In this document: positions 34,299 to 37,638 of the stretch, piece by piece
Numbering within the stretch: position 1 is the stretch's first letter
How the letters are laid out: the number at the start of each line of letters is the position of its first letter
Notes under the pieces: model-generated
What the model saw: the letters and a program-made list of their open reading frames with translations, nothing else
Database searches by the model: none
Told to the model about the DNA's origin: nothing
Source of the DNA: Deltaproteobacteria bacterium
GTDB lineage: Bacteria > Bdellovibrionota_C > UBA2361 > JAFLCA01
Direction: 5' to 3'
Length of the DNA stretch: 40,008 nt
NCBI GenBank assembly: GCA_017302875.1
Contig: JAFLCA010000010.1
Coordinates: 1 to 40,008, forward strand
Position numbers and translations under genes: made by a program

Positions 34299-34375
<77 letters not shown>

Positions 34376-34419: not shown

Positions 34420-34629
34420 ATGCCGAAGATGAAAACAAACCGCACGGCGAAGAAGAAATACCGTGTAAATGGAGCCGGACGGCCAAAGGCTGCCCGCGCT
34501 GGAACCAGCCACAACACCGGAAAGAAGTCGTCGAAGCGAATCCGTCATTTACGGCATTCACAGATGGTTGACGAGTCGTTTGTGCGCATGGTCTCGCACC
34601 AGATGCCGTACATGAAGAAGGCTAATTAA
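34420..34629 (+). CDS. rpmI: 50S ribosomal protein L35
   Basis: L35 is a small basic protein of the large ribosomal subunit. The 69-residue product begins MPKMKTNRTAKKKYRVNGAG and has the conserved basic core GTSHNTGKKSSKRIRHLRHS. GAGAGA precedes the ATG. It normally follows infC (IF3) and precedes rplT. Here rplT follows after 21 bp, but infC is absent upstream and replaced by tRNA-Val. Confidence 0.96.
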   Translation: MPKMKTNRTAKKKYRVNGAGRPKAARAGTSHNTGKKSSKRIRHLRHSQMVDESFVRMVSHQMPYMKKAN

Positions 34630-34650: not shown

Positions 34651-35007
34651 ATGAGAGTTAAACGTGGATTTGCAGGCCGTAGAAAACATAAGCGGCTTTT
34701 AAAATTAGCCGAAGGCAGAATCGGCCGTCGCAAGAGCAGCTATAAGCTCGCGAAGCGTTCAGTTCAAAAAGGTCTGAAGTATGCGTACCGCGATCGCAAG
34801 GTAAAGCGCCGCGACATTCGTAGCCTTTGGATCACTCGCATCAATGCTGCTGCTCGTCTTTCGGGTATTACGTACAGCCGCTTCATTCGCGGTTTGATGA
34901 ATGCGAAAATCGAAATCGATCGTAAGATTTTGGCCGACCTTGCGGCTAACGATCCGACTGCATTTGCGGCCATTGCGGAGAAAGCAAAGGCAGCTCTTGC
35001 TGCGTAA
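34651..35007 (+). CDS. rplT: 50S ribosomal protein L20
   Basis: L20 binds 23S rRNA early in large-subunit assembly and in several bacteria represses its own operon. The 118-residue product has the family start [20 protein letters not shown], a long basic helix ([20 protein letters not shown]), [20 protein letters not shown] and [16 protein letters not shown] lies before the ATG. A terminator follows. In the common arrangement pheST come next; here FabH-type genes do. Confidence 0.97.
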
Positions 35008-35030
35008 GCGCGCGCAATAACAGTCGCACG

Positions 35031-35073
35031 AAAGCCGGTCGCTTCCAGAATGGAGCGAGCCGGCTTTTTCTTT
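35031..35073 (+). terminator. Intrinsic terminator after rplT
   Basis: AAAGCCGG pairs with CCGGCTTT, continuing inward through CGCT/AGCG and CCA/TGG with one bulge, and is followed by a T run broken by C. It closes the tRNA-rpmI-rplT unit. Confidence 0.88.
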
Positions 35074-35074
35074 A

Positions 35075-35097
35075 GGTGCCGCCGCAGGGGCGACACC
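35075..35097 (+). other. Hairpin in the leader of the FabH-like pair
   Basis: GGTGCCGCC pairs with GGCGACACC around a 5-nt loop with a single C-A mismatch, 22 bp before the first FabH-like ATG. There is no T tract. It could affect expression of the pair, but may be chance. Confidence 0.3.
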
Positions 35098-35119
35098 AAT
35101 TCTAAGGTCAGGACATAGG

Positions 35120-36109
35120 ATGCGTTCGCAACTAAGAAACCTGGTCAATCCTGTTTTGGTGGGAGCCTTTGCCAGCTCCGATGATGCGCTTGGGGCATAT
35201 CACAGCGTCGATTCGGCTGGGTCGCAGATTTTTCGCTTCAATGATGCGGTGACTCCTTCGGATGCCGCTGTGTCGGCATGTCGAAATACGTTGGCTCGGG
35301 CCGACGTGAAAGCTTCCGAAATCGACTTCGTTATCTCTTGCACGCAAACCCCAGATTTCAATAATCCCGGCCTTGTCAGTTGTCTGCTTGCCAAACTTGG
35401 TGGGTTACACTGTCCGGGAATCGAGCTACGCCAAATGAGTGTCGGGCCGCTCTACGGACTCGATTTAGCAGAAAAACTCATTCGGACTCGACAGGCCCGC
35501 TCAGTGCTGGTTGCCTGTACGGATCTTTTGTCGCGCTATTTTGCGAACTTCGATTCGCATGCCACGGTCTCAGAAGCGGCGCGTTCCGCGCGTAGCGTTT
35601 TTGCGGATGGTAGTGCGTCTTTTTTGGTCGTCGATCAAGAGCAATCTCAATATCGTCAGAATTCGGATACATTCTTTGTCTACAAGGGGGGCAAGTTGGG
35701 AGCGACCGCCGTGGGGCGCGAAACGCTATGGTGCAAGCTGCCGTCAGCCCGGCAGTTCCCGATGCGAATCACTGCTGCTGATGTTCGCGAAGGGCGGCAC
35801 TATCCGGAACTTTCGGTGCAAGGCTTTGAAGCTGCTATTGCAAATAGCGCGCTACCGTTCAATTTCGACGGAGCGTCCTGCGCCGTGACACACCAAGTCT
35901 TCGATGGAATGACCGAGATCTTATGTCGCAAGCTACAGGTTTCGAACTTGCGGTTCTACGATGTCTTTGCGAAGCGTGGACACATTGGTGCCGCTGGGCT
36001 TCCTCTCGCGATGTCTCAGCTGCCGCGTTGCCGCAAGGGCGATATGGTCACCTTGGCAACTATTGGGGCTGGGATTAGTTGGGGATATTCACGGTTGGAG
36101 GCGCTGTAA
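35120..36109 (+). CDS. FabH-like (KAS III family) paralogue lacking the canonical active site
   Basis: The 329-residue protein has the thiolase-fold plan of 3-oxoacyl-ACP synthase III: SEIDFVISCTQTPDF, IELRQMSVGPLYGLDLAEKL, ARSVLVACTDLLSRY, SVFADGSASFLVV, CAVTHQVFDGM, FAKRGHIGAAGLPLAM and IGAGISWGY. The position of the nucleophile Cys (normally RQQCSGFLYGL) is Ser107. The His is kept (His258), and the Asn (normally YGNTSAA) is His288. The N-terminal region is shorter than in real FabH. So it has Ser-His-His where the family has Cys-His-Asn. It is followed immediately by a canonical FabH gene. AGGA lies 7 bases before the ATG. It may be a noncatalytic partner or carry a different reaction. Confidence 0.85.
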   Translation: MRSQLRNLVNPVLVGAFASSDDALGAYHSVDSAGSQIFRFNDAVTPSDAAVSACRNTLARADVKASEIDFVISCTQTPDFNNPGLVSCLLAKLGGLHCPGIELRQMSVGPLYGLDLAEKLIRTRQARSVLVACTDLLSRYFANFDSHATVSEAARSARSVFADGSASFLVVDQEQSQYRQNSDTFFVYKGGKLGATAVGRETLWCKLPSARQFPMRITAADVREGRHYPELSVQGFEAAIANSALPFNFDGASCAVTHQVFDGMTEILCRKLQVSNLRFYDVFAKRGHIGAAGLPLAMSQLPRCRKGDMVTLATIGAGISWGYSRLEAL

Positions 36110-37123
36110 ATGGCCTATATCGCCGGTGTCGGGCAATGCGTCCCGTCACATGTTGTCACGAATGCGGAACTCTCAACCTACATGGAGACTTCCGATGAAT
36201 GGATTCAGCAGCGCTCTGGCATAAAGGAGCGGCGTTGGGCGCGGCGCGGCAATGAGAGCGTCGGGGAGATGGGCAACTCTGACATGGCGGAACGCGCTGC
36301 TCGTAGCGCACTGACTCAAGCACGACTGACCGCCAACGACATTGATGCAATCGTGTATGCCACCATGAGCCCGGATAATGAATTTCCTGGGTCCGGTACT
36401 TTGTTGGCGCAGGCGCTTTGCCCGGATCGCGCCATTCCGGTATTCGAGGTTTGCAATCATTGTACTGGTTTTTTGTACGGCCTGTCGGTGGCGCGTGCAT
36501 ATATTGATTCCGGTGCCTACCGCACCGTTTTGTTGATAGGTTCTGAGCTCCTTTCCACGGGGCTGATGCTTTCAAACGAGGGACGCGCGACCGCGGTTCT
36601 CTTTGGAGACGGGTGCGGCGCGGCGATCGTTCGCTCATCTGAAGATCCGGCTCGTAGCATCCTTTCCTTGGACTTAGTTTCGGACGGTGCTTATGCCGAC
36701 AAGCTCGGAGTGCTAGCTCCTAGCTTTGCCAGGCCCGCACCGATAGAAGTGTCAGATTTTGAGGGCGAGGCGCCTGCAGCAGCGCCGCGTATGGATGGCC
36801 CCTTTATCTTTAAAATGGCCTCATTGAAGATGCCGGAGATAATTCTTTCGGCTTTAACGCGTCATGGACTGAGTGCCGCTGATCTTGATATAATCGTACC
36901 GCACCAGGCAAACCAGCGTATTTTGGATATGCTTGGTCAAGCTCTGGGATGTCCTGAAAAAGTGTTGAGCACCATATCGCGATATGGGAACACAACGGCA
37001 GCTACCATTCCTGTTGCGTTAAGTGAGGCAGTGGCGGCCGGCAAGATTTCAAAAGGCAAATTAGTCTGTCTGGTTTCATTCGGTGCAGGGGTCTCGTGGG
37101 GAGCAGCTCTCATAAAGTGGTAA
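36110..37123 (+). CDS. fabH: 3-oxoacyl-ACP synthase III (FabH type)
   Basis: KAS III condenses acetyl-CoA (or another acyl-CoA) with malonyl-ACP to start fatty acid synthesis; close relatives make secondary metabolites. The 337-residue product keeps the complete triad: Cys118 in CNHCTGFLYGL, His265 in VPHQANQRI and Asn294 in YGNTTAATIP. The N terminus is family-like (YIAGVGQCVPSHVVTNAEL, DEWIQQRSGIKERRW) and it ends VSFGAGVSWGAALIKW. It starts directly after the stop of the altered paralogue, with GGAGG 9 bases upstream. The stretch around residues 205-225 (FARPAPIEVSDFEGEAPAAA) is variable. The true substrate may differ from housekeeping FabH. Confidence 0.93.
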   Translation: MAYIAGVGQCVPSHVVTNAELSTYMETSDEWIQQRSGIKERRWARRGNESVGEMGNSDMAERAARSALTQARLTANDIDAIVYATMSPDNEFPGSGTLLAQALCPDRAIPVFEVCNHCTGFLYGLSVARAYIDSGAYRTVLLIGSELLSTGLMLSNEGRATAVLFGDGCGAAIVRSSEDPARSILSLDLVSDGAYADKLGVLAPSFARPAPIEVSDFEGEAPAAAPRMDGPFIFKMASLKMPEIILSALTRHGLSAADLDIIVPHQANQRILDMLGQALGCPEKVLSTISRYGNTTAATIPVALSEAVAAGKISKGKLVCLVSFGAGVSWGAALIKW

Positions 37124-37638
37124 ACGGTACGATTGAGTTAGATCGCCCCGTTATTGAGAGCGCGGTGATTTGCCGTCTTTCGCCGTCCTGCGTCAAGGAT
37201 GTGGCGGAAATCGAGGCGGAATCCAACACGCCTCCTTGGACTGAGCAGCTCTTCAGCTACGAGTTTAACAATCGCTGTTCTCGTGTATATGGCGCTCGAG
37301 TTGCCGGGCGCATCGTGGGCTTCCTGGTATGCCACGTCATCGAAGATGAAGCCCACATCATGAACTTCGGTCTGCGGCGCGATGAACGGGGACGGGGGTA
37401 TGGCCGCGAATTAATCCAATACGTACTGCGAGATCTGCATGAGGACTCCGTTCATTGGGTCACGCTCGAAGTCCGCAAGGGGAATGCGGTTGCGCGCCGA
37501 CTCTATGATTCGCTGGGATTTCTCGAGGTGGGACTGCGGGAGCGCTATTACCGAGACAATCAGGAAGATGCGCTTGTACTTAAATTGAATCTCCAGCAGT
37601 TTATCAATCAATTCGGATCTGACTCCGCAGCCACGTAG
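37096..37638 (+). CDS. rimI: RimI-like GNAT N-acetyltransferase
   Basis: GNAT acetyltransferases of the RimI type acetylate the N-terminal Ala of ribosomal protein S18 or other proteins from acetyl-CoA. The 180-residue product has EAESNTPPWTEQLFSYEF, the beta strands GRIVGFLVCHVIEDEAHIMNFG, the acetyl-CoA loop RRDERGRGYGRELIQ, and RKGNAVARRLYDSLGFLEVG with the conserved Tyr after it (RERYYRDNQEDAL). GTG 37096 has AGGGG upstream and overlaps fabH by 28 nt; GTG 37117 is a shorter alternative. The gene lies between fabH and pyrD, probably in one operon. Confidence 0.85.
   Translation: MGSSSHKVVNGTIELDRPVIESAVICRLSPSCVKDVAEIEAESNTPPWTEQLFSYEFNNRCSRVYGARVAGRIVGFLVCHVIEDEAHIMNFGLRRDERGRGYGRELIQYVLRDLHEDSVHWVTLEVRKGNAVARRLYDSLGFLEVGLRERYYRDNQEDALVLKLNLQQFINQFGSDSAAT

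Follow-up and report, generated by a model that had tools for sequence, protein, structure and literature searches.

What role could a protein stripped of catalytic residues play when its gene lies directly before that of an apparently intact enzyme of the same family? This question is raised by two adjacent genes, here called P1 and P2, in the window analysed (the whole stretch of 40,008 nucleotides from a deltaproteobacterial genome, referred to as G000 where several genomes have to be told apart). A sequence-only reading of the window had described a FabH tandem comprising a Ser-His-His member and a canonical one. It proposed that the two genes encode either a heterodimeric condensing enzyme with a noncanonical substrate or a starter-unit editing enzyme. 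The relevant features of the pair are these.

35120..36109, + strand: P1, a KAS III-like subunit of 329 aa, catalytically dead as judged by its KAS III homology and the triad being gone in three orthologues
35333..35401, + strand: P1 residues 72-94, a conserved loop and helix, ISCTQTPDFNNPGLVSCLLAKLG, equivalent to FabH residues about 78-99
35438..35440, + strand: P1 Ser107 (AGT), in the FabH Cys112 column; Gly and Asp in the orthologues
35891..35893, + strand: P1 His258 (CAC), in the FabH His244 column; lost in the orthologue from G008
35981..35983, + strand: P1 His288 (CAC), in the FabH Asn274 column; Tyr in the orthologues
36110..37123, + strand: P2, a KAS III of 337 aa with intact Cys-His-Asn, the putative catalytic subunit
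36461..36463, + strand: P2 Cys118, the nucleophile (TGT, codon read from the DNA)
36902..36904, + strand: P2 His265 (CAC, codon read from the DNA)
36989..36991, + strand: P2 Asn294 (AAC, codon read from the DNA)

The TAA codon of P1 abuts the ATG of P2, the two genes being arranged head to tail in the same frame. The codons bear out what had been read from the translations, namely that P1 has Ser107 for Cys and His288 for Asn and that P2 has the full Cys118-His265-Asn294 set. Both proteins match KAS III models and the domains PF08541 and PF08545, and not ketosynthase I/II. P1 matches KAS III along most of its length (the best phmmer match in the PDB being 3gwa, E 2e-16), but its match to the NCBIfam fabH model (E 3.5e-24) falls far under the cut-off, and the N-terminal Trp32/Arg36 motif of FabH is missing from it. 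P2 carries Trp32, Arg36, Cys, His and Asn of FabH in the alignment and lies over both curated FabH cut-offs (NF006829, 318 bits with a cut-off of 249; TIGR00747, 308.7 bits with a cut-off of 292.1). It is thus like FabH in its model scores and its triad, but in FabH the two subunits of the dimer are the same and both active, whereas P2 is paired with a dead one. Two other identities were considered and rejected: HMG-CoA synthase (P2 scores 52.6 bits with a cut-off of 244 and 39.7 bits with a cut-off of 353, and P1 gives no match at 0.001), and OleA (P2 is about 22% identical to the OleA-like protein of the genome, which is encoded on contig C260 beside an OleBC-like fusion).

The setting of the pair is defined by the following neighbours.

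34420..34629, + strand: rpmI (L35), upstream neighbour, an ORF with a syntenic rpmI in relatives
34651..35007, + strand: rplT (L20), conserved upstream neighbour (NCBIfam TIGR01032, 143 bits, cut-off 65.65), in the same order in G004 and G008
35030..35068, + strand: a hairpin with its 3' arm running into a U stretch (RNA fold), a probable intrinsic terminator after rplT
37096..37638, + strand: rimI, downstream neighbour (TIGR01575, 117 bits, cut-off 86.4)

The pair accordingly follows ribosomal protein genes with no plsX or acpP beside it, as the sequence-only reading had stated; a rpmF-plsX-fabG-acpP cluster resides on another contig (C201) and fabF on C45, neither with fabH beside it. The RNA fold of positions 35010-35120 has an energy of -43.5 kcal/mol (z -3.3), and the hairpin after rplT suggests that the pair is transcribed separately in the window's genome; matches in a promoter scan were no commoner than in shuffled sequence. 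The hairpin is absent after rplT in G008, in which P1 starts about 6 nt past rplT. At the other end of the pair, the rimI frame overlaps the 3' end of P2. A tRNA-like sequence with a GAC anticodon, by eye a tRNA for Val, occupies window positions 34300-34375 just upstream of rpmI.

The gene order rplT-P1-P2-rimI-pyrD-carD-ispD is common to the window and to contigs C21 of G008 and C130 of G004, two MAGs that appear in public records as Oligoflexia bacterium SSF28 and Deltaproteobacteria bacterium mag.25. The carriers thus represent three families of a single order, and the adjacency of the two genes, on which the earlier reading depended, is retained in both families beyond the window's own, with P1-P2 spacings of 0, -4 and +1 nt in the three genomes. 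In relatives without the pair (G003, G015, G018, G007 and G002) rplT is followed directly by rimI, so the pair has been either inserted into this neighbourhood or lost from it. A P1 profile run over 383 genomes found orthologues only in the three carriers (E 1e-152 or better), the next match (2e-39) being a single homologue that bears Cys. When 84,980 species were scanned by pattern, P1 alone gave no match and the three-row P1 alignment only the two known relatives; P2 was not found in viral contigs. Among plasmid proteins, the closest to P1 (31% identity) is a KAS III encoded by the Burkholderia glumae plasmid pBGF3 (L184:3854-4885), where its gene adjoins genes for an ACP, a VioA-like aminotransferase and an SDR.

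Comparison of the three P1 proteins, the identity of the orthologues to the window's protein being 35-36% (54-55% for P2), clarifies the state of the active site. The columns of FabH Cys112, His244 and Asn274 read S/G/D, H/R/H and H/Y/Y (the His column of the G008 protein aligns as R or Q), and C-H-N is kept in all three P2 proteins. Relatives of P1 therefore have Ser, Gly or Asp and in no case Cys, and a local sequencing error at Ser107 can be dismissed, as the orthologues likewise lack the Cys. Because Gly and Asp occupy the Cys column and Tyr the Asn column in the orthologues, Ser-His-His cannot be regarded as a triad, which makes P1 a pseudo-subunit; the three residues are present in the P1 of the window, as had been reported, but they do not form a conserved set.

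This result also bears on the idea that P1 is an independent enzyme with a Ser nucleophile, a starter-unit acyltransferase or editing hydrolase acting beside a homodimer of P2. DpsC is a KAS III homologue with just such a Ser nucleophile and is among the weak PDB matches to P1, Ser107 stands exactly at the Cys column, and His258 and His288 are nearby. However, a DpsC-like Ser at this column is present only in the P1 of the window, the orthologues having Gly and Asp there and one of them lacking the His as well. Moreover, the active-site segments of P1 are no more conserved than average, and relaxation of the P2 loop (see below) would not be expected. We regard an independent Ser enzyme as very improbable, and DpsC-like catalysis is rejected on the S/G/D pattern.

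The strongest clue to the function of P1 comes from the loop equivalent to FabH 78-99. The region was first chosen by eye from a conserved motif, and the statistics rest on triples, three P1 proteins being known. Of the 22 loop positions of P1, 17 are invariant, as compared with 56 invariant columns in the total of 270 (hypergeometric p 3e-9, three sequences), and in P2 the loop has 9 invariant columns out of 22 (p 0.65). Identity in the loop is 85% among the P1 proteins as against 33% overall, 47% against 54% among the P2 proteins, and 69% against 54% among single homologues. Expressed as a ratio of loop to whole-protein identity, these differences amount to 2.58 for P1 and 0.87 for P2, with 1.28 for 17 single P2 homologues and 1.27 for 13 canonical FabHs. 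Not one of the divergence-matched triples is as low as P2, be it among the singles (0/641) or among FabH (0/196). Unsupervised window scans, which were not given the region, arrived at the same place: the window of P2 that is most relaxed relative to the singles begins at residue 79, and that of P1 most constrained relative to P2 begins at 78.

The FabH residue-87 column, occupied by Asn82 in the P1 of the window according to the alignment, is Asn in all P1 proteins, Phe, Leu or Ser in the P2 proteins and Phe in 16/17 singles. In FabH as in PqsD, the loop bearing residue 87 extends to the active site of the opposite subunit. The size of this residue in FabH (Phe87 for E. coli, Thr87 for M. tuberculosis) governs acyl-chain preference, and in PqsD the channel towards the active site is lined by the equivalent Asp87 of the second monomer (PMC3734052). 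Where two such proteins form an obligate heterodimer, the loop of the dead subunit would face the live site and should be constrained, whereas that of the live subunit would face the dead site and be free to change. The reciprocal pattern seen in the alignments supports such an obligate heterodimer, one possibly working like PqsBC. Of the two proposals made for this locus from the sequence, a heterodimeric condensing enzyme is thus supported by the tight linkage, the loss of the triad in three P1 proteins and the reciprocal constraint on the loop, but starter editing or altered catalysis is at odds with a nucleophile column of Ser, Gly and Asp.

The same data weigh on two further explanations. 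Many pseudoenzymes are regulators, and P1 and P2 might each form homodimers, with P1 having a binding or regulatory function, but no enzymatic one, in the pathway that P2 serves; its preserved KAS III fold signature and tight linkage to P2 would agree with this. A P2 homodimer, though, should keep the trans loop in the way its single relatives do, and the P2 loop is relaxed to an extent not reached by any of the 641 triples; furthermore, the most conserved strip of P1 is exactly this trans loop. Two separate homodimers are, in our opinion, improbable. Alternatively, P1 may be a duplicate, derived from P2 or from a different KAS III, that is decaying and survives only by chance. In the protein tree P1 sits on a very long branch and cannot be placed, its sister relationship to P2 being neither shown nor rejected (p-AU 0.28), as decay would allow; P2 groups with a set of KAS III proteins of the RNQCSGF type, separately from the canonical FabH that is linked to fabF in the class. 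Against decay stand three intact P1 frames of 328-331 aa from three families and a nearly invariant strip of 23 residues, which lead us to discard a pseudogene and to consider chance retention hardly credible.

An experimental precedent for the heterodimer exists in PqsB/PqsC, the 2-heptyl-4-quinolone synthase of Pseudomonas aeruginosa: PqsB misses all triad residues, and PqsBC is a pseudo-symmetric FabH-like dimer (PMC4807248). P1/P2 resemble this system in consisting of adjacent genes of the KAS III family with the dead member first and the catalytic one second (the PqsB/PqsC order being taken from L183). The differences are nevertheless considerable. PqsC has Val299 where P2 keeps Asn, and the two are 26% identical; the BLASTP match of P1 to PqsB covers only 29 residues (27 bits); PqsB, itself on a very long branch, is placed away from P1 in the tree; and the neighbours of P1/P2 are rplT, rimI, pyrD, carD and ispD, with no pqsA, pqsD or pqsE beside them. 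Membership in the PqsBC family is therefore rejected, given no PqsB homology, the retained Asn of P2 and no quinolone context. A looser parallel is offered by KS-alpha and KS-beta (chain length factor) of type II PKS, a heterodimer of an active and an inactive ketosynthase in which the inactive one influences the product; these proteins are of the KAS II (FabF) type, unlike the KAS III proteins discussed here.

We thus consider it fairly likely that P1 and P2 constitute an obligate heterodimeric KAS III, in which P2 provides the sole working site and the P1 loop shapes its acyl pocket. In such an enzyme the Cys-His-Asn of P2 would perform decarboxylative Claisen condensation, an ordinary reaction of this kind being expected since P2, unlike PqsC, keeps the full triad, and P2 would probably prime a type II fatty-acid-type synthase. 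P1 has lost its own nucleophile, the partner residues and the CoA-binding N-terminal motif; its loop 72-94, including Asn82, is predicted to cross the dimer interface, form part of the acyl pocket of P2 and set which starter P2 accepts. P1 may persist precisely because its loop contributes to this pocket, and the substrate of the pair may, as had been proposed, be a noncanonical one. That the two proteins bind each other, that P1 shapes the pocket and that the pair primes a synthase are all deduced from the features described above. AlphaFold predictions suffered from too few sequences, both for P1 (three sequences; pLDDT 47, pTM 0.53) and for a P1-stop-P2 read-through that represented the heterodimer (pTM 0.32).

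A second dead/live tandem turned out to exist in the same order. G008 encodes another adjacent KAS III pair, C80a-C80b (e.g. L040:4665-6642; other loci L185-L211), whose live member occurs in about 27/46 genomes of the phylum. In each of the 25 genomes in which the upstream partner was read, it lacks both Cys and His, and the downstream protein keeps C-H-N in 26/26 usable sequences. With 22 dead and 26 live sequences, the ratio of loop to whole-protein identity is 1.75 for the dead and 0.83 for the live subunit, and the most relaxed window of the live subunit again starts at 79. The C80 pair hence shares with P1/P2 the design, the dead-first gene order and the reciprocal constraint on FabH 78-99. 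It differs in its locus (usually beside a SURF1-like gene), in being far wider in the order, where it is common, and in its origin, since C80a and C80b are sister clades in the protein tree and the pair thus arose separately from P1/P2. The dead partner is not always indispensable, as G004 keeps the live C80 gene without it. The C80 pair is missing from the window's genome. In G001, G002, G006, G009 and G010, no FabH-like KAS III besides the C80 pair was found at E 1e-20.

Which pathway the P1/P2 pair may serve can be judged from the remaining gene content. In the genome of the window (95% complete), the KAS III C-terminal domain (PF08541) occurs in four proteins, i.e. P1, P2, an OleA-like protein and a type III PKS-like protein, so the search for a separate housekeeping fabH, advised in the sequence-only reading, left P2 as the sole FabH-like KAS III found. 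The OleA-like gene belongs to ole-type gene sets, in which it lies beside the gene for an OleBC-like fusion (L037:1-3366 in G000; L041:5896-10872 on contig C94 of G004, which also has an OleD-like gene). The type III PKS-like gene is followed by a methyltransferase gene (L038:9579-11331, contig C233 of G000), the locus adjoining genes for a FAD-dependent oxidoreductase and a YceI-like protein; a homologue occurs in G008 (L173:14398-15543). Two very similar ketosynthases of 437 aa, judged by their first residues and scores, are encoded on contigs C243 and C235 (L179:7628-8941 and L180:2186-3499) and represent either a recent duplication or a strain mixture, the contamination estimate being 8%.

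P2 being the only FabH-like KAS III found in G000, with the other PF08541 proteins OleA-like and type III PKS-like, it is conceivable that the pair is simply the housekeeping FabH, P1 being a stabilising scaffold and no special substrate being involved; PqsB has likewise been termed a scaffold (PMC4807248). Yet P1, if a scaffold and nothing more, would have no need to preserve the residue-87 loop in preference to everything else, certain close relatives are without a FabH-like KAS III except the C80 tandem, and the genome is 95% complete. In addition, E. coli survives the loss of fabH (PMC8666670), so housekeeping initiation does not have to depend on a KAS III and this role is not forced on P2. 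A plain housekeeping function is therefore possible but, to our mind, doubtful.

A different client of the proposed heterodimer is suggested by a second type II FAS gene set on contig C35 (L176:1-6786), which encodes FabD-like, SDR reductase, FabA, FabG, FabZ-like, KS, ACP, LPLAT-like acyltransferase and PPTase proteins and does not contain a KAS III. The KS of this set is present in 4/46 genomes: the three that carry the pair (L177 in G008, L178 in G004) and G021 (L227), the assembly of which does not include the rplT locus. This distribution suggests that the pair primes the C35 set, although the three carriers may be one clade, a point not settled by the species tree (p-AU 0.19), and the co-occurrence could then reflect shared ancestry. 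A broader scenario, in which a pseudo-subunit setting the starter in trans arose at least twice in the order and the window's pair is the only KAS III starter, priming the C35 set, seems rather unlikely as a whole.

Among FabH-like enzymes, PqsBC has been singled out as the only heterodimer. Here, two further and mutually unrelated dead/live KAS III pairs are found in a single order, both outside quinolone synthesis and both bearing the same fingerprint, an interface loop constrained in the dead subunit and relaxed in the live one. If the proposed interpretation is true, the reciprocity of the residue-87 loop would provide a sequence-only test for heterodimeric condensing enzymes elsewhere, and the question of whether a pseudoenzyme subunit selects the starter in fatty acid or polyketide synthesis would become directly testable.
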